Assembly (NCBI GenBank): GCA_014859685.1
Contig: JACUTU010000001.1
Location: 273,416-337,415 of the forward strand
Direction of reading: 5' to 3'
Source: Sulfurospirillum sp.
Lineage (GTDB): Bacteria > Campylobacterota > Campylobacteria > Campylobacterales > Sulfurospirillaceae
DNA: 64,000 bases
A model generated the notes under the pieces. It saw only the letters and a list, made by a program, of their open reading frames with translations, had not been told where the DNA came from and made no database searches. The position numbers and the translations under genes are program-made. Within the stretch, counting starts at the first letter, position 1. The number at the start of each line of letters is the position of its first letter. Below, piece after piece: positions 43,871 through 54,880 of the stretch.

Positions 43871-44800
43871 TTATTTTTGATATTCATACAAGCCGGTGCT
43901 TAGATATCGCTCGCCGGTGTCACAGAGGATTGTTACTATTGTTTTGCCTTTGAACTCTGGTCTTTTGGCGAGTTCTTTTGCAGCAAATACATTGCCTCCG
44001 GCTGAAATGCCGATGAGTAAGCCCTCGGTTTTTGCTATTTCTCTTGCAGTAGCCGCGGCGTCCTCGTAAGAAACTTGTATGATCTCATCATAACTTTGTG
44101 TATTTAAAACTTCAGGAACAAATCCAGCACCTATGCCTTGTATTTTGTGCGGCCCAGGTTTGCCACCTGAAAGCACCGGCGATACATTCGGCTCCACAGC
44201 ATATATCTTTACATGTTGGTTTTTTTGCTTCAGTACTTCACCTACGCCAGTTATAGTCCCACCAGTACCAACGCCTGCTACAAAAGCATCAACACTTCCA
44301 TCTGTATCATTCCAAATCTCAATTGCAGTTGTTTTTCTGTGAATATCTGGATTGGCTACATTTGCAAATTGTTGTGGAACAAATGAATTTTTTGTGTTTG
44401 CTGCGAGTTCATCCGCTTTTGCAATAGCACCTTTCATGCCAAGTGGCGCTTCAGTCAATACGAGTTCAGCTCCCAATGCACTTAAAAGTTGTCGTCTTTC
44501 CAAACTCATAGATGCAGGCATTGTAAGAATGATCTTCAACCCAAGGCTTGCACAAACACTTGCAAGTCCGATACCTGTATTGCCACTTGTTGGTTCTATG
44601 ATGATTGTGTCTTTATTTATCTTGCCACTTTGTAGAGCCTCGTTTATCATATTGAAAGCAATTCTGTCTTTTACTGAATGTGATGGATTTAGGAATTCAC
44701 ATTTTCCTAGGATCAATGTGCCTGTTTCTTCTGAATATTTATTGAGTTTTACAAGGGGTGTGTTGCCGATGAGTTCTGTAAAATTTTGTGCATATTTCAT
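43871..44800 (-). CDS. cysK: Cysteine synthase (O-acetylserine sulfhydrylase)
   Basis: PLP enzyme that makes cysteine from O-acetylserine and sulfide. 309 residues. N-terminal LIGNTPLVKLNKYS, PLP Lys in NPSHSVKDRIAFNM, substrate loop PTSGNTGIGLAS, phosphate-binding GVGTGGTITGVGEVL and C-terminal GISAGGNVFAAKEL. It is the last gene of metY-rrf2-cysK on the minus strand, so cysteine and homocysteine synthesis from free sulfide share control. Confidence 0.95.
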   Translation of the reverse strand: MKYAQNFTELIGNTPLVKLNKYSEETGTLILGKCEFLNPSHSVKDRIAFNMINEALQSGKINKDTIIIEPTSGNTGIGLASVCASLGLKIILTMPASMSLERRQLLSALGAELVLTEAPLGMKGAIAKADELAANTKNSFVPQQFANVANPDIHRKTTAIEIWNDTDGSVDAFVAGVGTGGTITGVGEVLKQKNQHVKIYAVEPNVSPVLSGGKPGPHKIQGIGAGFVPEVLNTQSYDEIIQVSYEDAAATAREIAKTEGLLIGISAGGNVFAAKELAKRPEFKGKTIVTILCDTGERYLSTGLYEYQK

Positions 44801-44815
44801 AATATATCCTTTATT

Positions 44816-45241
44816 TTAAAGTCCAAATGTGCTAAAAGTCGCATTTGGAGTTTTTGGCTTGCTGTATTTCTTGTGCAAATCATACAAAGAGAGTGCAAAA
44901 ATCTCTTGCAACTCTTTTTTGCTTGAGGCATAAAAACTTTCAAGCACAGCATTGCTGTTGTGTGCATCTACAACACCAATATCTCCCTCAAGTGTGAGAA
45001 AAATATCTTTGATGAAGATCATTTTTGGACTCTTTGCAAGCATATAACCACCATTAACCCCCCGTGTGCTTTTGACAAAATCTGCCTTCTTGAGCAAAAC
45101 GAGAATTTGTTCAAGGTAATTTTGCGGGATATTTGCTCTTGTGGCTATATCTTTTATCTGGAGCGATTTATTGTGATCACTCAAAAAAAGCTCATACAAT
45201 GCTGCCAAACCATACAACCCTTTCGTTGAAATAAGTGCCAT
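44816..45241 (-). CDS. Rrf2-family transcription regulator (CymR/IscR-like, no cluster cysteines)
   Basis: 141 residues. Winged helix with the Rrf2 pattern LISTKGLYGLAALYELFL, IATRANIPQNYLEQILVLLKKADFVKSTRGVNGGYMLAK. The three cysteines that bind Fe-S in IscR/NsrR are absent; this is the condition in CymR, the cysteine-metabolism repressor of Bacillus that works with CysK. Its place between metY and cysK supports the same job here. Probable targets are the divergent promoters at 46.5-46.7 kb. Confidence 0.85.
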   Translation of the reverse strand: MALISTKGLYGLAALYELFLSDHNKSLQIKDIATRANIPQNYLEQILVLLKKADFVKSTRGVNGGYMLAKSPKMIFIKDIFLTLEGDIGVVDAHNSNAVLESFYASSKKELQEIFALSLYDLHKKYSKPKTPNATFSTFGL

Positions 45242-45246
45242 GGTTT

Positions 45247-46509
45247 TTAGCCTATCGCCTGAGCAAGGTCGGCTATGAGATCTTCTGAGCTTTCAAGTCC
45301 AATGCTCAATCTGATCAATCCCTCAGGAATATCAGCAACTTCAAGTTCTTCGCTTGAAAGTTGCTGATGAGTTGTGCTTGCTGGATGCGTGATGATAGAT
45401 TTTGAATCGCCTATGTTTACAACAACAGCAAATATTTTTGTACTATCAAGGATATTTTTTGCACTTTCAAAATCCTCTACTTCAAAGCTCAACAAACCAG
45501 ATGTTTGAGCGTCTTTAAAATACTTAACCGCCTTATCATGTTGCGGATCATCTTCAAGTCCTGGATAATTAACACTTTTTACTTTTGGATGCGATTTGAG
45601 GTATTTTGCCACTTTATACGCATTGCTTGAGTGCTGTTTCATGCGAATTGATAATGTTTCAAGCCCTTGAATAAATAGCCATGAACTAAAAGGAGATGGT
45701 ACTGCACCTATATCGCGGAGCAATGAAAGTCTAGCGCGAAGTGTGAAAAGTGGAAACGGTAAATCAGCATACACTAATCCATGATAACTTTCATCAGGTT
45801 CATTAAATTGCGGATAAAGTGGATTTTTGATCAGTTTTTCGTTGAGTCCAAAACGAGTGATTATAACACCACCTATTGCAAGTCCTTGTCCTGTTATGTA
45901 TTTGCTTGCACTGTGAACGACAACATCAACGCCTAATTTAAGTGGCTGCAAGAGTATCGGTGTAGCAACAGTGTTGTCACAAATACTCACGATATTGTGT
46001 TTTTGTGCGATAGACACTATCTTTTCTATATTTGGGATGGCGATTTGTGGGTTTGAGAGTGACTCAAAGTAAATCGCTTTTGTTTTATCATCGATTAATG
46101 CCTCAAGATCATCAGCCTTGTCACTTTCAAAAGTTTTAGCTTGGATACCAAATCGTTTGAGTGTGTGTGTCAAAAGTGTTGTAGAGCCGCCATATATCTT
46201 GCGTGCTACAAGAATGTTATCACCAGCTTCAGCTAAATTTGCTATTGCAAAAAAGATAGCTGCTTGACCACTTGCGGTAGCCAAACTTGCTTCACCACCT
46301 TCAACTGCTGCAATTCTCGCTTCAAAAACATCCGTTGTAGGGTTATTGAGTCTTGTATAAATAGGTCCTAATTCTTTGAGTGCAAAAAGATTTGCAGCTT
46401 TTTGCGCACTACCAAAATCATACGCAGTTGTTTGATATAGTGGAACTGCCATTGTCCCAAAACCGTCATGTTCATAGCCATAATGCAAAGCCAAAGTTTC
46501 TTGTGTCAT
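45247..46509 (-). CDS. metY: O-acetylhomoserine sulfhydrylase MetY (conventional)
   Basis: PLP enzyme making homocysteine from O-acetylhomoserine and sulfide. 420 residues, the full MetY length. N-terminal TLALHYGYEHDGFGTMAVPLYQTTAYDF, GPIYTRLNNPTTDVFEARIAAVEGG, the PLP Lys in HSASKYITGQGLAIGG and the C-terminal IRLSIGLESSEDLIADL are typical. First gene of metY-rrf2-cysK. A second, different family member (54890-56119) lies in the divergent operon. Confidence 0.93.
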   Translation of the reverse strand: MTQETLALHYGYEHDGFGTMAVPLYQTTAYDFGSAQKAANLFALKELGPIYTRLNNPTTDVFEARIAAVEGGEASLATASGQAAIFFAIANLAEAGDNILVARKIYGGSTTLLTHTLKRFGIQAKTFESDKADDLEALIDDKTKAIYFESLSNPQIAIPNIEKIVSIAQKHNIVSICDNTVATPILLQPLKLGVDVVVHSASKYITGQGLAIGGVIITRFGLNEKLIKNPLYPQFNEPDESYHGLVYADLPFPLFTLRARLSLLRDIGAVPSPFSSWLFIQGLETLSIRMKQHSSNAYKVAKYLKSHPKVKSVNYPGLEDDPQHDKAVKYFKDAQTSGLLSFEVEDFESAKNILDSTKIFAVVVNIGDSKSIITHPASTTHQQLSSEELEVADIPEGLIRLSIGLESSEDLIADLAQAIG

Positions 46510-46544
46510 TTGTGTTCCTTTTTAATTTTTTAATTCCGAGTGAA

Positions 46545-46573
46545 ATTATAGAGTATATTTCTAAATATGTCAA
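46545..46573 (-). promoter_or_regulatory. Consensus sigma-70 promoter for metY-rrf2-cysK
   Basis: On the minus strand TTGACA (complement of 46568-46573), a 17-base spacer and TATAAT (complement of 46545-46550). Both hexamers are perfect. It lies 36 bases before the metY start. Confidence 0.8.
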
Positions 46574-46586
46574 GTAAAAAACTTGA
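46570..46586. promoter_or_regulatory. Candidate Rrf2-regulator operator at the metY promoter
   Basis: Perfect inverted repeat TCAAGT-AAAAA-ACTTGA overlapping the metY -35 hexamer. The half-site ACTTGA recurs at 46683-46688, at the -35 of the opposite promoter. A repressor such as the Rrf2 protein encoded just downstream could shut both. The assignment is inference. Confidence 0.5.
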
Positions 46587-46684
46587 ATATCATAAATTTT
46601 AGAGATTTTTATGTAAATATAGACTAAAAAAACAGAGAAAATACAAATTTATTTGCATAAACTATATTAAATCACTTTATATAC

Positions 46685-46713
46685 TTGACTTAAGAGATAT
46701 TTCTTGATATTAT
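46685..46713 (+). promoter_or_regulatory. Promoter for the sulfate assimilation/Hcy operon
   Basis: TTGACT at 46685-46690, a 17-base spacer and TATTAT at 46708-46713, 28 bases before the first gene. ACTTGA (46683-46688) overlaps the -35 and repeats the half-site seen at the metY promoter. Confidence 0.65.
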
Positions 46714-46741
46714 TTCACGAAATATTGAAAAAAGGAACTCT

Positions 46742-46969
46742 ATGATAGAGCATAAAAAAAGAAGTATTGCCAAAGCAATATCTTGTGAGAAGCTTGGCGC
46801 GATAGATACAGTGCTTATTAATTTTTTAGTAACAAGAGGCTCTTTGAATGCTGTATCCATTGTGTCTTTTGAATTTATCACCAAAACTTTGCTCTACTAT
46901 TTTTATAAAAAGACTTGGAGTAAAATATGTTTTGGGCGTCAAAAAATTGAACCGGAGTATCAGATATGA
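46742..46969 (+). CDS. DUF2061 family small membrane protein
   Basis: 75 residues. The pattern RSIAKAISCEKLGAIDTVLINFLVTRGSLNAVSIVSFEFITKTLLYYFYKKTW fits DUF2061, a family with two short hydrophobic segments often found next to sulfate-assimilation genes. Its job is not known; a role in sulfate or sulfite handling at the membrane is guilt by association. GAAAAAAGGAAC precedes the ATG and it overlaps cysH as ATGA. First gene of the operon. Confidence 0.7.
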   Translation: MIEHKKRSIAKAISCEKLGAIDTVLINFLVTRGSLNAVSIVSFEFITKTLLYYFYKKTWSKICFGRQKIEPEYQI

Positions 46970-47661
46970 ATGCTACATGCAAAGAAAAGATTGCACAAGC
47001 TTTAAAAGTGTTGCAAGAAGAAATAGTCGATAAAAATTATAGAGTTACTCTGGGATTTAGTCACCAAAATGAAGATGTGATAGCGATAGATTTAGCACAA
47101 AAAGCAGGTGTTGCATTTGATGTTTTTACACTGGATACACAAAAACTTTTTCAAGAATCTTTGGCGTATCAAAAGGAGATAGAAGCATTTTTTAACATTA
47201 AAATCAAATCTTTTAGTGCAACAAAAACGCAGATATATGAACTTGAGACAAAAGTTGGCGAAACTGGAATTTTTGAAGATATTGCTTTGCGAAAAGAGTG
47301 TTGTTATGTAAGAAAAATAGAACCGCTCAAGATAGCTTTAGTTGGCTACGATGGTTGGATTAGTGGCATTCGTCAAGCCCAATCACCTACAAGAGCCGAG
47401 GTTTTGCTTGCAACATTTGATGCACAATTCGGGCTTTTTAAGTATAACCCATTGGTTTATTTTAGTGATGCAGATGTAAGTGATTATATGCAAAAAAACG
47501 CATTGCCACAAAATGCTTTGTATGCGAAAGGTTTCAAAAGTATAGGATGTAAGCCCTGTACTCGAGCGGTTAATGCGGATGAGGATATAAGAGCTGGTAG
47601 ATGGTGGTGGGAAGCGCCGCAACATAAAGAATGTGGATTGCATCTACAAAAAAAGGATTGA
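46966..47661 (+). CDS. cysH: Adenylyl-sulfate (APS/PAPS) reductase CysH
   Basis: Reduces activated sulfate to sulfite using thioredoxin. 231 residues. A PP-loop-like N-terminus (VTLGFSHQNEDVIAIDLA) is followed by ECCYVRKIEPL, GIRQAQSPTRA, GCKPCTRAV and the catalytic Cys in KECGLH. The CC pair plus CxxC are the four ligands of a [4Fe-4S] cluster, seen in APS-using enzymes rather than cluster-free PAPS reductases. As no CysC kinase is present here either, APS is the likely substrate. Confidence 0.92.
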   Translation: MNATCKEKIAQALKVLQEEIVDKNYRVTLGFSHQNEDVIAIDLAQKAGVAFDVFTLDTQKLFQESLAYQKEIEAFFNIKIKSFSATKTQIYELETKVGETGIFEDIALRKECCYVRKIEPLKIALVGYDGWISGIRQAQSPTRAEVLLATFDAQFGLFKYNPLVYFSDADVSDYMQKNALPQNALYAKGFKSIGCKPCTRAVNADEDIRAGRWWWEAPQHKECGLHLQKKD

Positions 47662-47664
47662 GCT

Positions 47665-48543
47665 ATGGATCATTTAGATAAACTAGAAGCACAAAGTGTT
47701 TATATCTTGCGTGAAGCGTATAGAAGTTTTCCAAATCTTGCCATGCTTTGGAGTATCGGTAAAGACAGCACGGTGCTTTTGTGGCTTAGTAGAAAAGCGT
47801 TTTTTGGACATGTTCCCTATCCGCTTGTGCATATTGATACAGCTTTTAAGATACCGCAAATGATAGAATATCGAGATACGATAGCTACACAGTGGGATCT
47901 TAATTTGGTTGTCGGACAAAACAAGCAAGCGTTGAATCGTGGTGAGACATTTGTTGATGGACTTGATAGACTGAGTTGTTGTAAAAAACTCAAAAGTGAA
48001 GCACTAAAACATACGCTAGATGGCTCATGGAGTCGCTCAAAATACAATCCCTATAAAAAAATTTGGGAAGAAGAAGTAAATGGTGCGCCTTATACGGGCG
48101 TAATCGTAGGTGTGCGGGCTGATGAAGAAGGAAGTAGATCTAAAGAGAGAGTTTTTTCAGCAAGAGATGAAAAAAGCGAGTGGGATACAAGCACACAACC
48201 TCCAGAACTTTGGAATCAATATAAAACTGATTTTGCACCCGATACACATGTTCGTATTCACCCACTTCTAGAATGGACTGAACTCAATATTTGGGAATAT
48301 ATCCATAGAGAAAAAATCCCTATTATTTCACTTTACTTTAATCAAGGTGACGGAAAACGATACCGTTCTTTGGGCTGTTACCCATGCACTACGCCTGTAG
48401 ATTCGCAAGCAACAACCACGCAAGAGATTATCGATGAGCTTGTAAGTGGTAAATTCAAAGACATAGCCGAACGATCTGGAAGAGCGCAAGATAAAGATGG
48501 TGGCGGAACATTGGAGATTTTAAGAAAAGAGGGGTACATGTAA
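47665..48543 (+). CDS. cysD: Sulfate adenylyltransferase subunit 2
   Basis: Catalytic subunit of ATP sulfurylase (CysDN), forming APS from sulfate and ATP. 292 residues, normal. PP-loop [12 protein letters not shown] at about residue 31; [63 protein letters not shown]. It overlaps cysN by one base, and a TACATGTA covers its last codons. Confidence 0.96.
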
Positions 48544-49892
48544 TGCAAAGACTCAATATAGTAATAACAGGTCATGTGGATCATGGCAAAAGTACACTTA
48601 TAGGAAGGCTTTTGGCAGATACAAACTCCTTACCACAGGGAAAATTAAAAAATGTACAAAAGATGTGTGAAAACAATGCGAGACCTTTTGAATACGCTTT
48701 TTTGCTCGATGCTCTTGAAGATGAGCAAAAACAAGGCATCACGATTGATAGTGCGCGCGTTTTTTTTAAGAGTCAAAAAAGAGAATACATCATCATAGAT
48801 GCTCCTGGTCACATAGAATTTTTAAAAAATATGATAAGTGGCGCATCAAGGGCTGAAGCGGCATTGTTGCTCATTGATGCAAAAGAAGGAGTTGCTGAAA
48901 ATTCAAAAAGGCATGGAATGTTACTCTCTTTGCTTGGGATTAAACAAGTCGCTGTTGTGATAAATAAGATGGATCTCGTAGATTTCAGTGAAGCAGAATT
49001 TTTAAGGATCAAAGAACAATACAGCACTTACTTGCAAACATTGGGGATAGAGAGTGAACAATTTATTCCAATAAGTGCTAGAGAAGGGATAAACCTTGTG
49101 GAAATTTCAGCTAAAACACCTTGGTATAAAGGCAAGAGTGTTTTAGAGGTTTTAGATAGTTTTAAAGGAAGTGAATCGAAGCAGAATGAAGACTTTAGGA
49201 TGCCTTTGCAAGATGTCTATAAATTTACTAGAGACAATGACAATAGACGCATTTATGCAGGAACGATAACAAATGGCACTTTAAGCGTTGGAGATACGGT
49301 TGTTTTTTATCCATCACTCAAACGCTCCGTTGTTGCAAGTATTGAGAGCTTCAATACTCCTGTAAAAACGCAAGTCCATGAGGGTGAAGCGGTGGGTTTT
49401 ACTTTGCAAACACAAATCTATGTGAAAAATGGTGAAGTTGTTGCTAAGGCTGATGAAAGTAAGCCAAAGTGTGCAAAATGCTTTGAAGCAAATATCTTTT
49501 GGCTGGGTGCAAAACCACTTGAGCCAAACAAGGCGTATAAAATTAAAATAGGCTCAGCACAATGCACCGTTTATCTTAAGGCTATCCAACGCGTGATTGA
49601 TGGCGAAACGCTTGATCGCGACAATGGCTTACATGTAGCACTTCATGAAGCTGCGAGTGTTGTATTTGCAACGCATGATATATTGGCGTTTGAAGAATTT
49701 GAAAATAACCAAAAATTGGGTCGTTTTGTTATCGTTGATGAATACGATATAGCAGGCGGTGGGATTATCACGCAAGTGTTTGAAGAATCCTTACATGTAA
49801 GTCAAAATTTACTCTCTTTGGTAGGCGGTGACAATGACTTTGAGGCAGAATTTTTTACACTGCTTCGCAAATATTTTCCACATCAATTTTAA
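48543..49892 (+). CDS. cysN: Sulfate adenylyltransferase subunit 1 (GTPase)
   Basis: GTP-hydrolysing subunit that drives APS formation. 449 residues, no fused CysC kinase domain. G1 [22 protein letters not shown]3 [13 protein letters not shown]4 NKMDLV and the EF-Tu-like beta domains ([19 protein letters not shown]) are all visible. It is somewhat shorter than E. coli CysN (475). It sits after cysD and 12 bases before hcyS. Confidence 0.95.
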
Positions 49893-49904: not shown

Positions 49905-50111
49905 ATGAAAGTGTTAATAAACGGTGAAACAAAAGAGTTTCAAGACAATATAAACTTACTTGAACTGCTCAAAGTGGAAGATGTTGCGCAACCAGATATG
50001 GTTTCGGTGCAACTCAACGATACATTTGTAACAAAAGATGACTATAGCAGTATAGTTTTAAAAGAGGGTGATACAATCAATTTTTTATACTTTATGGGAG
50101 GTGGTGCGTGA
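49905..50111 (+). CDS. hcyS: Sulfur carrier protein HcyS (ThiS/MoaD-like) ending in Gly-Gly-Gly-Ala
   Basis: 68-residue ubiquitin-fold sulfur carrier: KVLINGETKEFQDNINLLELL at the start, LKEGDTINFLYFMGGGA at the end. Normal ThiS/MoaD end in a bare Gly-Gly; the extra Ala is the mark of HcyS from Wolinella succinogenes, where the protease HcyD removes it before the C-terminus is adenylated and converted to a thiocarboxylate. AAAGGATAG precedes the ATG. It overlaps hcyF by four bases. The name rests on this C-terminus and on the neighbours. Confidence 0.88.
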   Translation: MKVLINGETKEFQDNINLLELLKVEDVAQPDMVSVQLNDTFVTKDDYSSIVLKEGDTINFLYFMGGGA

Positions 50112-50914
50112 GAGAATTTAGCGATGAAGAATTGGAGCGATATTCAAGGCATATTATCTTAGAAGATATAGGGATTGAAGGGCAAGAGAAGATAGCACAA
50201 GCAAAAGTTCTTATAATCGGAGCTGGCGGACTTGGATCACCTGTGGCACTGTATCTTGCAGCTGCTGGAATTGGTGAGATCGGTATTGTTGATGGCGATG
50301 TTGTGGATTTAAGCAATCTGCAAAGACAAGTCATTCACTCTACAAAAGATATAGGCGTTGCTAAAGTACAATCAGCCAAAGAAAAGATGGAAGCTATCAA
50401 CCCAAACATACATATCACAGTGTATCAAAAGTTTTTAGACGCTTCAAATATCTTAGATATCGTGAAACAATATGATTTTGTGATCGATGGTACAGATAAT
50501 TTTGCTGCCAAATTTTTAATCAATGACGCTTGTGTGCTTGCAAATATTCCTTATTCGCACGGTGGTATTTTGCGTTTTGGTGGACAAACTATGAGTATTA
50601 GACCACATGAGAGTGCGTGTTATGCTTGTGTATTTGATGCACCACCGCCAACAAATGCTGTTCCTACTTGCTCAAGTGCTGGTATATTGGGAGCAGTGGC
50701 TGGGATGCTTGGCACTATTCAAGCCACAGAAGCACTCAAGTATATCACAGGGGCAGGCGAACCACTCTTTAATAAGCTCTTGAGTTTTGATGCAAAAAGT
50801 ATGCAATTTCGCACTATCAACTTCAAAAAAAATCCAAAATGTCGCGTATGTGGTGAACAAGGCATAACACAGATAAAAGATTATGAAGCGGTTACATGTG
50901 AGGCAAAATTATGA
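50108..50914 (+). CDS. hcyF: HcyF, ThiF/MoeB-like adenylyltransferase for HcyS
   Basis: E1-like enzyme, 268 residues, that would adenylate the C-terminus of HcyS. ATP-binding VLIIGAGGLGSPVALYLAAAG, Arg/Asn motif LSNLQRQVIH, DGTDNFAAKFLIND, the zinc CxxC pairs CYAC and CRVC, and the conserved Cys in PTCSSAGILG. MoeB and ThiF have the same layout; the placement between hcyS and a JAMM protease makes HcyF the best name. Starts with GTG (50108) overlapping hcyS. Confidence 0.88.
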   Translation: MREFSDEELERYSRHIILEDIGIEGQEKIAQAKVLIIGAGGLGSPVALYLAAAGIGEIGIVDGDVVDLSNLQRQVIHSTKDIGVAKVQSAKEKMEAINPNIHITVYQKFLDASNILDIVKQYDFVIDGTDNFAAKFLINDACVLANIPYSHGGILRFGGQTMSIRPHESACYACVFDAPPPTNAVPTCSSAGILGAVAGMLGTIQATEALKYITGAGEPLFNKLLSFDAKSMQFRTINFKKNPKCRVCGEQGITQIKDYEAVTCEAKL

Positions 50915-51330
50915 TAAAAATTCCTCAAAATGTCTATGAAATGATGGTAGAACACGCCAAAAGAGATCTGCCAAATGAAGCATGCGGTTATTTAGCGGGC
51001 AAGCATAAAGAGGTGCATTATGCCATTTGTATGACAAATACAGATGCAAGTTGTGAGCATTTTAGTTTTGATCCGCAAGAGCAATTTGATGCTTTTAAGC
51101 AAACACAAAAAGAGGGCTTGCAACTCATCGGCGTGTACCATTCACACCCACAAACTCCAGCGCGTCCAAGCGAGGAAGATATTGTTTTAGCCTATGATCC
51201 ACGCATTAGTTATGTGATCATATCTTTGTGTGCACAAGAACCAGATATGAAATCTTTTATCATTCAAAATAAAACAGTTGAAAAAGAAGAGATCCAAATT
51301 ATAGTTACACAAAAGGAGACAGCATTATGA
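50911..51330 (+). CDS. hcyD: HcyD, JAMM metalloprotease that processes HcyS
   Basis: 139-residue JAB1/MPN (Mec+) zinc protease. Catalytic Glu in NEACGYLAG and the JAMM motif HSHPQTPARPSEED (HxH, seven residues, Ser, two residues, Asp). In Wolinella HcyD removes the terminal Ala of HcyS and later releases homocysteine from the HcyS adduct. It overlaps hcyF and sir by four bases each, so all three should be made in equal amounts. Confidence 0.9.
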   Translation: MIKIPQNVYEMMVEHAKRDLPNEACGYLAGKHKEVHYAICMTNTDASCEHFSFDPQEQFDAFKQTQKEGLQLIGVYHSHPQTPARPSEEDIVLAYDPRISYVIISLCAQEPDMKSFIIQNKTVEKEEIQIIVTQKETAL

Positions 51331-53615
51331 GTTATTACGCCATTCCACCACTTGTACATGAGGATTTAAAAGTTTTTGCAAAAAATCATGAAGATTTTTT
51401 AGCAGGTAAACTTGATGCACTTACATTTAAAACAATGCGCGTTCCTTTTGGTGTATATGAGCAACGAGAACCCGATACTTATATGGTTCGCATCAAATTA
51501 GGAGGCGGTATCATTACGCCAAAACAACTGTTATCCTTGGCGGAACTTGCAAAAAAATATGCTCATGAAAACTTGCATATAACTACAAGGGGAGGTGTGC
51601 AACTACATTATGTGCATATCGAGGATATCGTGGAAATCATCTACACTTTGCATAGCATAAGCCTTAGCGGGCGTGGCGGTGGCGGCAATACGGTACGCAA
51701 TATCATGGCAGACCCACTTGCAGGAACAGCATGCGATGAAGTATTTGATGTTTCTCCTTACGCACTTGCTCTCACTTCAAAAATGCTGGATCAAAAAGAT
51801 TCTTTTGCGTTACCACGAAAATTTAAAATTACTTTTAGTGGATCAGATGAAGATCGAGGCTACGCAACTATTCATGATGTGGGGTTTATAGCTAAAATTC
51901 AAGATGGCAAAAAAGGGTTTAAGCTTTTTTGTGCAGGTGGTATGGGTGCAAAATCCAATCCATCCGTATTGCTTCGTGATTTTATCCCTGAAGAAGAAGT
52001 TTTTCTCTACTCACAAGCGATCAAACAAGTTTTTGACGCACATGGAAATCGCAAAAATAAACATGCAGCAAGGTTGCGTTTTTTAATGAATGAAGTTGGT
52101 TTAGATGCGTTTAATGAGATGTTAGAAGCCGAACTTGTCAAAGTGCGTGCAAGAGATGATTGGCGTATGCAAACACAAGAAATTGAGAGAAAAGAGGGCG
52201 ATAACAGTGTTACGCCATTTAGCATTCCGCAAGAGATACAACAATGGTGGAATAGATTTGTGTATGCGCAAAAGCAAGTAGGTTTGTACGGCTGTAAAGT
52301 ACCTGTGCATTTAGGGGATATTTTTTATGAGCATGCAAGGCAACTTGCCAATGCTTTGCTTCCTTTTGGTGAAGATGTATTGCGTTTTTGTGGGGATCAA
52401 AATCTTTATATCAGAAATCTTACGGCTCCGCAAATGGCAAGTTTATACGAGTTATTGCAAAATTTCTCAAAAGAAGTGAGCAAACCAACGCTCTTTGGTG
52501 ATATGGTAGCATGTACGGGTGCGGCAACTTGTCAGCTTGGTATCTGTAGGCCACGAGGTGCTGTTGATGCGATACAAAAACGCCTTGATGCACTTTTACA
52601 AACCCGTGATTATGATGCCTTGCAAGGCTTTAAGATTCATCTCTCAGGTTGTCCAAATAGTTGTGGAAAGCACCTTATCGCAGATCTTGGATTTTTTGGA
52701 AAAGTACAAAGAAAAGATGGCTATCCCTATCCAGCTTACAATGTTGTTGCTGGAACAAAAACAGATGCACAAGAAACAGTATTTGCAAAAAAATGTGGTG
52801 ATGTAGCAGCGTTTCATGTGCCAGCTTTTGTGCAAGAAGTGTTGGACACTTGGCTCTTACATGTAAGAAATTTTGCAAGTTTTAGCGATTGGATAGACGC
52901 AGGTGGTGATGCAATTATCAAACAAATTAGCACAAAATTTGTCGAAATTCCAACCATAAAAGAAGATAAAAATCCTTATTTTGATTATGATGCACTGGAA
53001 CTTTTTTCACTCAAAGGCAGAGGTGCCGGAGAATGTAGTGCTGGGATGTATGATCTTATCGAAGCAGATAAAAAAGGATTAAAAGAAGCATTAGAGGAGA
53101 AGGAAAAAAACTTTTCACTTATCCGTTTGCTTGCAGCTAGAATGCTTCTTGTTACTCGTGGCGAAGATGCACGGGATGAGGTTGGCGTATTGCAACTTTT
53201 CAAAAAGCATTTTGTAGATACAACGATTCTCAATGCTTACTTTGGAAAACTTCTTGAGGGTGAAGCTGATGAGCGAAGTTTGGAGCTAGCAGATGAGGTG
53301 ATGAAGCTATATGACAGCATGGACAATACACTCAAATTTGCACGAGAAAAAGAGTTAGCATTACAAAATGCACAAGCAGATGCAGTGCAATCAAAGATTC
53401 ATTTTAAAGATTTGAGCGGTGTAGCATGCCCTATGAATTTTGTAAAAACAAAAATGGAACTTGCTAAAATCGCTAGTGGCGAAGTCTTGGAGATTCTTTT
53501 GGATGATGGTGCGCCGATAGATAATGTGCCAAAATCAGTCTCAAGTGAAGGGCATAGTGTTCAAGAGCCTGTAAAAGAGGGCAAACTTTGGCGTGTGAGG
53601 ATTGTGAAAAAATGA
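51327..53615 (+). CDS. sir: Siroheme sulfite reductase fused to a TusA-like domain
   Basis: 762 residues, longer than usual because of a C-terminal extension. The sulfite/nitrite reductase part has the NIR_SIR ferredoxin-like half-domains (LHITTRGGVQLHYVHIED), GRGGGGNTVRNIMADPLAG, and the [4Fe-4S]-siroheme ligands Cys396, Cys402 (ACTGAATC) and Cys442, Cys446 (CPNSC). A helical segment (about 550-690) follows, then a TusA-like sulfur-relay domain from about 692 with Cys701 in GVACPMNFVKTKMELAKI. The fusion suggests that sulfide, or a persulfide on Cys701, passes directly to HcyS-adenylate. Confidence 0.88.
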   Translation: MSYYAIPPLVHEDLKVFAKNHEDFLAGKLDALTFKTMRVPFGVYEQREPDTYMVRIKLGGGIITPKQLLSLAELAKKYAHENLHITTRGGVQLHYVHIEDIVEIIYTLHSISLSGRGGGGNTVRNIMADPLAGTACDEVFDVSPYALALTSKMLDQKDSFALPRKFKITFSGSDEDRGYATIHDVGFIAKIQDGKKGFKLFCAGGMGAKSNPSVLLRDFIPEEEVFLYSQAIKQVFDAHGNRKNKHAARLRFLMNEVGLDAFNEMLEAELVKVRARDDWRMQTQEIERKEGDNSVTPFSIPQEIQQWWNRFVYAQKQVGLYGCKVPVHLGDIFYEHARQLANALLPFGEDVLRFCGDQNLYIRNLTAPQMASLYELLQNFSKEVSKPTLFGDMVACTGAATCQLGICRPRGAVDAIQKRLDALLQTRDYDALQGFKIHLSGCPNSCGKHLIADLGFFGKVQRKDGYPYPAYNVVAGTKTDAQETVFAKKCGDVAAFHVPAFVQEVLDTWLLHVRNFASFSDWIDAGGDAIIKQISTKFVEIPTIKEDKNPYFDYDALELFSLKGRGAGECSAGMYDLIEADKKGLKEALEEKEKNFSLIRLLAARMLLVTRGEDARDEVGVLQLFKKHFVDTTILNAYFGKLLEGEADERSLELADEVMKLYDSMDNTLKFAREKELALQNAQADAVQSKIHFKDLSGVACPMNFVKTKMELAKIASGEVLEILLDDGAPIDNVPKSVSSEGHSVQEPVKEGKLWRVRIVKK

Positions 53616-54880
53616 GTACTTTAGGTATCGCACTTAAGCCCAAAAAAACACTTCTCATAGGAGCAGGAGCCGTTGGTGCGCAAAAAGCATCGGTACTTGA
53701 TAGCCTTGATTTTACTTATGATGTGGTAGCGCTTGAACTTATTGATACCTATTTTTTAACAAAAGAGATACGCATCAAAGCATTTGAAGATGCTGATGCT
53801 AAAGGCTATGAGATTATCATCGATGCTACAGGTAATGAGGCGGTTACAAATCGTTTAGTTGCTCTCAAACCACATTTGCATTTTTGGCTCAATGTTGTCG
53901 ATGTGCCACACTTGTGTGATTTTTATTTTAGTGCGCTTACGCAAAGAGGTGATATACAAGTAGCAGTAAGTAGCGGCGGTGCATCGCCAAGTCTTGCACA
54001 AGTGATTCGCAATAAAGTTCAAAGACTTTTGCCACAAAATCTCACGCCATTGATCGAGAGATTGAGGAATGAGAGAAAAAATCCTGAGCGAAATATGGCA
54101 AAATTACGGGGCATTGCAAAAGAGGGCGTTGGCAAAGTTTTTCTTATAGGTTGTGGCACAGGATATGTTGGCAATCTGTGTTTAGACGCGTTACATACTT
54201 TTGAAATTCTTGATATAGCACTTGTGGACGCGCTTGTTTCTAAAGAGATTCAAGCACTTTTACCACCTACATGTAAGATCGTAGATGTGAGTAAGAAAAA
54301 AGGGTTTCACTCAAAAAGTCAAGATGAAATCAACACTCTCTTGCTTGGCTATGCAAAACAAGGATTTGTTGTAGGCAGACTTAAAGGTGGTGAGCCACTT
54401 TTGTTTGGCAGGTTGGGTGAGGAAAAAGCTATCTTATCAGAGCATGGCATCGCTTTTGAAGTGATAAATGGTATCAGTTCTGCTTTTCGCTCTTGTATTA
54501 TTGCAGGCATTGTTCCAACAATTCGCGATATATCCAAAGGCGTAACAATCGTCTCTGCACACTTGAGAGAATCGCTTTTTAATGATGATTGGGTGGCATT
54601 AGTGAAACAACCTTTGCATACTGTGATTGTGCTGATGGCACATAGTTTTGCACAAAAAATTCAAAATTCTTGTCATTTGCAAGGTATCGATCCAAACACA
54701 CCAGCTGCTTTTGTCTCAAATATAGATCAAAGCGAACAAGTAACGATTATAGGAGCGATTGGAAGACTTGAGCAGATGAGTAGTTTATGTTCTTCACCAG
54801 CTGTTTTGATAATCGGCGCATGCGTTGCCAAAGAAAACATTATATCCGCTGAAAATAGCGGTAAAATTATCTACATGTAA
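53612..54880 (+). CDS. cysG: Siroheme synthase CysG-like bifunctional enzyme
   Basis: 422 residues: an N-terminal precorrin-2 dehydrogenase/ferrochelatase part (KTLLIGAGAVGAQKASVLDSL, VAVSSGGASPSLAQVIRNKVQ) and a C-terminal uroporphyrinogen-III methyltransferase (VGRLKGGEPLLFGRLGEEKAI, VINGISSAFRSCIIAGIVPT). The usual opening motif GAGPGDP of the methyltransferase is here GCGTGYVG, a notable divergence. It makes siroheme for Sir. I chose ATG 53612, overlapping the sir stop as ATGA, rather than an upstream in-frame ATG inside sir. Confidence 0.85.
   Translation: MSTLGIALKPKKTLLIGAGAVGAQKASVLDSLDFTYDVVALELIDTYFLTKEIRIKAFEDADAKGYEIIIDATGNEAVTNRLVALKPHLHFWLNVVDVPHLCDFYFSALTQRGDIQVAVSSGGASPSLAQVIRNKVQRLLPQNLTPLIERLRNERKNPERNMAKLRGIAKEGVGKVFLIGCGTGYVGNLCLDALHTFEILDIALVDALVSKEIQALLPPTCKIVDVSKKKGFHSKSQDEINTLLLGYAKQGFVVGRLKGGEPLLFGRLGEEKAILSEHGIAFEVINGISSAFRSCIIAGIVPTIRDISKGVTIVSAHLRESLFNDDWVALVKQPLHTVIVLMAHSFAQKIQNSCHLQGIDPNTPAAFVSNIDQSEQVTIIGAIGRLEQMSSLCSSPAVLIIGACVAKENIISAENSGKIIYM

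Follow-up and report, generated by a model that had tools for sequence, protein, structure and literature searches.

The closest described counterpart of the locus considered here is CymR, the CysK-coupled sulfur regulator of Bacillus subtilis and Staphylococcus aureus, which has the Rrf2 fold and controls cysteine and methionine genes. According to the available parts of the sources, CysK stabilizes CymR on DNA, and O-acetylserine dissociates the complex of CysK with CysE (PMC4961446, PMC12895370). CysE is anchored in CysK by its C-terminal Ile, a motif of this kind being borne by CymR as well (PMC12895370, PMC4961446, as far as their available parts go); deletion or replacement of the terminal Ile of CysE abolishes CysK binding (PMC12895370, available part). 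No DNA-binding consensus of CymR was found in the available portions of the literature examined for it.

Other members of the Rrf2 superfamily, e.g., IscR, NsrR, and RirA, are Fe–S regulators. In gamma-proteobacteria, the sulfate assimilation genes are controlled by the LysR-type sulfur regulator CysB; the predicted targets of the regulator discussed below likewise include such genes, whereas its protein family is unrelated to that of CysB. For the sulfur-cycling Campylobacterota (Sulfurospirillum, Arcobacter, Sulfurimonas, and their kin), neither an account of the regulation of sulfur assimilation nor a paper describing the regulon outlined here was found in the literature searched.

In the present work, a 64,000-nucleotide stretch of DNA (the window) from a Sulfurospirillum genome of the order Campylobacterales was analyzed; the same-genus contigs compared with it came from metagenome assemblies of Sulfurospirillum sp. 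The region 46510–46741 of the window probably harbors two operators for the Rrf2 protein of the metY-rrf2-cysK gene string, which would act as a CymR-like, CysK-coupled repressor.

Gene Content of the Locus

The region separates two divergent gene strings (Table 1), with 232 bases between the starts of metY and the DUF2061 gene. The string on the minus strand, in which rrf2 adjoins cysK, is well kept: metY, rrf2, and cysK stand together in 37 of the 40 relative loci fetched, and the other three loci end early or are devoid of one or two of these genes. The plus-strand string was called the “hcy operon” in the initial annotation, which is a fair name, as cysHDN is followed there by the genes of a ThiS-like carrier, a MoeB-like E1, a JAB protease, and a sulfite reductase. 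The carrier (49905–50111) ends in GGGA, and the last gene of the string (siroheme synthase-like, cysG-like) was named from its ORF sequence. The set of carrier, E1, JAB protease, and sulfite reductase–TusA fusion (49905–53615) is, judging by the sequence, consistent with thiocarboxylate-dependent homocysteine synthesis; the thiocarboxylate genes are presumably those named hcyS/F/D. A protein-thiocarboxylate route to methionine is on record for Wolinella (Krishnamoorthy and Begley 2011, cited in the available part of PMC6225789). In other genomes, the DUF2061-cysH operon is located far from metY; a cysH match was present in 23 of the 44 family genomes, own genome counted.

Table 1. Features of the locus (positions in the window).
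Feature	Position	Strand	Details
cysK, cysteine synthase A, proposed regulator partner	43871..44800	-	TIGR01139, 451 bits over cut-off 351
rrf2, Rrf2-family regulator, 141 aa	44816..45241	-	no cysteine; C-terminus ...STFGL
metY, O-acetylhomoserine sulfhydrylase, first gene of metY-rrf2-cysK	45247..46509	-	TIGR01326, over cut-off
Candidate metY-rrf2-cysK promoter	46545..46573	-	TTGACA-N17-TATAAT, 12/12 matches; TTGACA from 46573 downward
Operator-like element at the metY promoter	46564..46597	-	34-column matrix site, 7.0 bits; ACTTGAC 46569–46575
Palindrome TCAAGT-AAAAA-ACTTGA of the initial annotation	46570..46586	.	right arm is real; no conservation of the left arm at N5
Conserved 20-bp dyad AGT-N14-ACT, its frame at metY	46573..46592	-	axis from 85 sites
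Operator-like element at the DUF2061 promoter	46661..46694	+	9.6 bits; half-site ACTTGAC 46683–46689
Candidate DUF2061-cysHDN-hcy-sir promoter	46685..46713	+	TTGACT-N17-TATTAT, 10/12 matches
Gene of the small membrane protein DUF2061, opening the divergent operon	46742..46969	+	PF09834
cysH, cysD, cysN, sulfate activation/reduction	46966..49892	+	cysH, cysD by NCBIfam; cysN from ORF sequence
hcy/sir part: ThiS-like carrier, MoeB-like E1, JAB protease, sulfite reductase–TusA fusion, siroheme synthase-like gene	49905..54880	+	

The Rrf2 Protein and Its C-Terminal Tail

The product of rrf2 belongs to the Rrf2 superfamily (PF02082, 90 bits, E 1.9e-25; TIGR00738, 80.6 bits over the cut-off of 73.3). 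By score, its nearest equivalog model is that of CymR (NF047409), far under the cut-off (87.3 of 195 bits, with 67–108 bits for five relatives); the IscR model gave 59.8 of the 207.6 bits. The initial annotation described the protein as an Rrf2-type regulator without cluster cysteines, and indeed the window protein has no cysteine at all, in line with the lack of Fe–S-ligating cysteines in CymR; its relatives have zero to four. In this respect, as well as in its predicted targets, it is unlike IscR, NsrR, and RirA, with which it shares the superfamily and the fold. The best fold matches of its AlphaFold model (mean pLDDT 83.8) were Thermincola IscR (4cic, the top match), a Listeria regulator, and Bacillus CymR (2y75; TM 0.80 by target length for 2y75_E). 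The residues 131–141 of the model have pLDDT below 50, as for a loose tail.

The end of this tail is a further likeness between the wider Campylobacterales family and CymR. The C-terminal pattern [YF]-x-Ile, defined after the tails had been seen, is present in 60 of 64 Rrf2 sequences (the window protein and one non-orthologue included); the exceptions are three proteins of the window’s genus, ending in TFGL, and the non-orthologue. In an overlapping set of 80 named loci, it was found in 78, both exceptions again belonging to the window’s genus. The window protein itself, ending in STFGL, has no CymR-type C-terminal Ile, which counts against the proposal in view of the effect of the terminal Ile in CysE. 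In the window’s genus, the tail (44816–44840, minus strand) is approximately three residues longer than that of the relatives (NYTTFGL vs. NYTI), with TFGL in three of three genomes.

As a control, 15 other Rrf2 paralogues of these genomes were considered, i.e., those left upon removal of the spurious tblastn matches L337 and L341 and of three regions without a match. None of the 15 has [YF]-x-Ile. Seven of them, including one in the own genome, end in Ile without an aromatic residue (GLGI or IIEI), hence the confidence in both CysK-coupled readings presented here is slightly lowered. Another Rrf2 paralogue possessing four cysteines ends in GGLGI (L336, at G000 C7:502000–503299, as well as L348 and L349) and might dock in CysK, too.

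A terminal Ile was found in none of the 15 genomes whose CysE exceeded the family cut-off (the CysE of G074, below it, was left out). A CysE without the Ile tail has been likened to that of B. subtilis (available part of PMC12895370). The tail proposed here to enter the CysK active site thus resembles the Ile-ending peptide of CysE in the CysE–CysK complex, but it is situated on the regulator. Taken together, the Ile tail on Rrf2, its absence from CysE, and the precedents of CymR and CysE led us to propose CysK as a co-repressor and sensor.

The Promoters and the Conserved Element

According to the initial annotation, a TTGACA-N17-TATAAT promoter faces metY, a TTGACT-N17-TATTAT promoter faces the hcy operon, and ACTTGA is common to their -35 boxes. 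Both promoters are present in the expected orientations, and ACTTGAC overlaps each of the -35 boxes, with ACTTGA recurring at 46683. At the same time, ACTTGAC by itself is not enriched in the 64-kb window (6 found, 6.8 expected), and a promoter scan at a loose threshold, yielding 4 sites vs. 3.6 in shuffles, proves nothing alone; an Rfam gathering scan of the window returned no family at threshold.

A larger element emerged from the comparison of the upstream regions of metY in 38 relatives (40 loci were fetched; L049 and L080, truncated or without metY, were left out) and the window. In all 39 aligned regions, TTGAC is accompanied at N17 (the best of spacings 16–18) by a -10-like hexamer, and 38 of them display ACTTGAC. 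Upstream of the -35 box, the conservation goes on, giving TASTttTTTgATaAanTTACTTGACATT. Of 24 relative loci with the DUF2061-cysH operon, 20 possess the same kind of element at its -35 box.

Collectively, 85 distinct sites have a dyad consensus of AGTAAATCTA and TAGATTTACT, followed by TGACATT. The dyad, in which 14 bases separate AGT from ACT, runs on into ACTTGACATT, and its right half is the -35 box, an arrangement which suits a repressor. The best symmetry axis lies at -9.5 from the -35 start, where a fraction of 0.588 of the pairs is complementary (next axis, 0.436), vs. a mean of 0.34 and a maximum of 0.387 for the shuffled spacer control (1000 shuffles); in 36 sites outside the models, the same axis reaches 0.661 (next, 0.444). 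The full extended form AATGTCAAGT-N14-ACTTGACATT is found at the locus L199 and, with one or two mismatches, at L287 and L289; L189 has a perfect dyad of 22 bases. At the metY site of the window, the right half alone is well kept, and the site’s own left half shows no match. The half-site alone is not specific: WWWACTTGACWW occurs at 12 places in the own genome vs. 16 for the reversed control, including promoters assigned by eye to the rpsJ and clpB types. The sites and genes are of common descent, so these counts are not independent.

The palindrome TCAAGT-A5-ACTTGA, noted in the initial annotation over the first -35 box, is indeed there, and its exact form has a single place in the 2,096,005-base genome. 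As an operator or a genome motif, it was rejected. Its left arm is not retained in the metY alignment, two same-genus relatives are devoid of it at metY, and it is exact in one of the 85 distinct sites, the window’s own. The suggested genome search for TCAAGT-N5-ACTTGA near sulfur genes fails with this motif: at ≤1 mismatch, 13 of the 15 places are inside ORFs, and the sole other intergenic near-match stands ahead of a gene judged by eye to be HrcA-like. Three matches at ≤1 mismatch fall within the window (0.41 expected), and at ≤2 mismatches the genome has 148 per strand vs. 96 for the reversed control. A spacer-1 form, TCAAGT-N-ACTTGA (16 of the 85 sites at ≤1 mismatch), was likewise put aside as TATAAANT overlapping the pattern, since the symmetry there is 0.424 vs. 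0.588.

Distribution of the Element and the Putative Regulon

A matrix of 42 family sites, none of them from the own genome, was run over both strands of the window (about 128,000 positions). The two window promoters ranked second (DUF2061) and third (metY), the next match having 6.1 bits. Since the training sites have a leave-one-out median of 34.9 and a minimum of 11.2 bits, the scores of the window’s own sites are weak; judged by this ranking, both promoters are members of the motif family, as weak ones. The best match (46891–46924, plus strand, 11.4 bits) falls within the DUF2061 ORF, a short way upstream of cysH, which shows that the specificity of the matrix is imperfect. As an operator, this match was rejected: it has no counterpart in relatives among the matches listed in the family scan and was held to be a coding chance. 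At the sequence level, the cross-genome ranking constitutes strong evidence for the shared element.

Two further sequence-only models built from relatives, with the window’s sites left out, i.e., R1 and R2 (the latter without the -10), were used for genome scans with 150 candidates scored per genome. In the own genome, R1 lists as its best match a site ahead of a DUF4395 gene (C12:62122, 35.6 bits, E 1.8e-8) and as its second the metY promoter (24.6 bits, E 5e-5); the site at the DUF2061 promoter is absent among the matches listed by R1 or R2. The DUF4395 gene behind this operator (G000 C12:62146–62177, L203) has a gene for an outer-membrane-like protein after it and is divergent from an ADP-ribosylglycohydrolase gene.

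Over the 44 family genomes, R2 gave a match at E ≤ 0.05 in 42. Among the places listed, 35 neighborhoods were opened; those left unopened are the metY and DUF2061-cysH sites already modelled, the window’s 46891 match, and G015:C56, which points off the contig end. Sulfur-type genes follow 22 of the 35 opened sites: 6 sites are at metY, 7 at operons of DUF4395 or Cys/Met PLP enzymes, 3 at transporters of the MetQNI type, 5 at the gene of a periplasmic binding protein preceding metH, and 1 at that of a sulfonate/nitrate-type binding protein. The remaining 13 comprise groESL, two hrcA-like genes, one ArsR-like gene, one gene of unclear nature, two others, and six places in ORFs. At E ≤ 0.005, 17 of 18 opened sites precede Cys/Met or sulfur-type transport genes, and one precedes groESL. 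Therefore the question raised in the initial annotation, i.e., whether the motif is equally common away from sulfur genes, is answered in favor of the larger conserved element. The domains recognized by Pfam in representatives include DUF4395, Cys_Met_Meta_PP, NlpA, ABC plus NIL, Peripla_BP_6, MetH, and flavocytochrome c sulfide dehydrogenase; the DUF4395 operons of relatives bear the element as well.

Two observations concern individual targets. In L188 (G027), counted among the 17, the operator still precedes what is left of the genes for DUF4395 and the PLP enzyme. In Sulfurospirillum-like genomes (L195, L197, L198, L205, and L217), a Peripla_BP_6-type gene with the operator is located upstream of metH; its product is perhaps a component of a sulfur amino-acid transporter.

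The order scan of 40 genomes listed 71 places, 20 of which were opened. Thirteen of these precede rrf2, cysK, cysD, DUF2061-cysH, DUF4395, transporter, monooxygenase, or sulfide dehydrogenase genes, e.g., extracellular binding proteins of a transporter identified by eye as sulfate-like or a luciferase-like monooxygenase accompanied by a binding protein; seven are not sulfur-type or unclear, including grpE-dnaK and two in ORFs (Pfam). Through these operator-like sites, the regulator may control cysteine and methionine genes as CymR does.

Association of the Element with Rrf2 and Alternative Explanations

Within the order, the element stands before metY in 12 of the 20 genomes with an Rrf2 orthologue and in none of the 15 without it (best, 4.2 bits), Fisher p being 1.8e-4 with kinship uncorrected and with borders set after seeing the list. 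The comparison encompasses 35 of the 40 genomes, i.e., those with a scored metY; the matrix was family-trained, the element was taken as at least 14 bits, and the orthologue border was an Rrf2 match of E ≤ 1e-19, so that three genomes with weaker Rrf2 matches were counted as without. In two of the 12 (G074 and G088), the element has the reverse orientation and is 14 bases away from the metY start. In a further set, 24 of the 80 named loci found with the Rrf2 alignment were left out (site already known, or window’s genus); of the remaining 56 new loci, 47 reach a score of 12 or more (41 distinct sites) and 9 do not, vs. none of the 56 with the reversed matrix (maximum 10.2). Among the loci left out, L385 attains 15.3 when the matrix is reversed.

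The link between the element and Rrf2 is thus suggested by co-occurrence and symmetry. The initial annotation had surmised that one CymR-like repressor could govern both directions, and this idea gained support from an element which is shared by both -35 boxes, stands before sulfur genes, and tracks rrf2; the operator did not hold as drawn at N5, the conserved dyad having the N14 frame instead. On the sequence evidence, a CymR-like repressor acting in both directions is the best reading.

A mere strong sigma-70 promoter (an extended -35 box plus A-tracts) serving high expression of the sulfur genes, with Rrf2 acting elsewhere, would account for a part of the data. Heat-shock and tRNA promoters of the same genomes possess CTTGACA-N17-TATAAT-like boxes, the strong promoters of groESL, hrcA, grpE-dnaK, clpB, and tRNA genes (by eye) also score, chiefly via the -35 half, and neither ACTTGAC in the window nor WWWACTTGACWW in the genome is enriched. 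We regard this explanation as unlikely: the conserved dyad is upstream of the -35 box and outside the hexamers, the -10 is poor at several sites (some of those linked to DUF4395 and metH), and the element is missing before metY in all 15 genomes without the Rrf2 orthologue. CTTGACA-like -35 boxes were seen by eye at heat-shock promoters of the lineage at L139, L142, L200, L206, L207, and L301.

Alternatively, a different, unlinked regulator could bind the element and control the same sulfur genes, with rrf2 being one of its targets. Such a regulator would be compatible with a linkage to Rrf2 seen by co-occurrence only and with the 8 of the 20 orthologue-bearing genomes that have no element before metY. 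It is rendered rather improbable by the genomes G060, G091, and G096, in which the element is directly before rrf2 itself and not before metY, and by the operons of the second Rrf2 paralogue (rrf2 between DUF4395 and the Cys/Met PLP enzyme), which carry the element too. Finally, a repressor dimer sitting on TCAAGT-N5-ACTTGA at metY, with the ACTTGA half-site at the second promoter, is very hard to credit: the palindrome is exact and unique in the genome, but its exactness is confined to one distinct site, it is missing in same-genus relatives, and its near-matches are mostly in ORFs.

Proposed Mechanism and Its Implications

Under the preferred reading, that of a CysK-coupled Rrf2 repressor, the operator would be the AT-rich dyad of AGTAAATCTA and TAGATTTACT, whose right arm continues to ACTTGACATT, holding the -35 box. 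We infer that the Rrf2 dimer binds this element and, when bound, would obstruct sigma-70 RNA polymerase at the two divergent promoters. Following the precedent of Bacillus CymR, its flexible C-terminal tail ([Y/F]-x-Ile; FGL in the window’s genus) would dock in the active site of CysK, so that under sulfur sufficiency the CysK–Rrf2 complex would stay on the operator. Under sulfur limitation, O-acetylserine is expected to accumulate and compete for CysK, lifting the repression; the derepressed functions would comprise sulfur transport and sulfate assimilation along with the synthesis of homocysteine and cysteine.

The likeness to CymR includes the Rrf2 fold, the cysteine-free window protein, and the predicted sulfur targets. 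Unlike CymR, the regulator scores below the NCBIfam cut-off, belongs to another phylum, and is encoded between metY and cysK; its putative operator is positioned on the -35 box, and its tail ends in FGL in the window’s genus. Both the operators and the tail have drifted in that genus, hence the mechanism is better supported for the order than for the own genome.

Tentatively, and with somewhat more doubt than conviction, we suggest that Campylobacterales possess a CysK-gated general sulfur regulator of the Rrf2 family with the tail on the repressor and not on CysE, an autoregulated operon encoding both the regulator and the sensor, and an operator embedded in the -35 box. In the window’s genus, it would be altered (TFGL tail, weaker operators), and the circuit may respond differently there. 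The predicted sulfur regulon takes in DUF2061, DUF4395, and the periplasmic binding protein beside metH. With a defined operator, a regulator, and a likely sensor enzyme at hand, sulfur regulation in Campylobacterota becomes directly testable. If the proposal is true, a circuit of the CymR/CysK type, described in Gram-positive bacteria, would also operate in a Gram-negative phylum.
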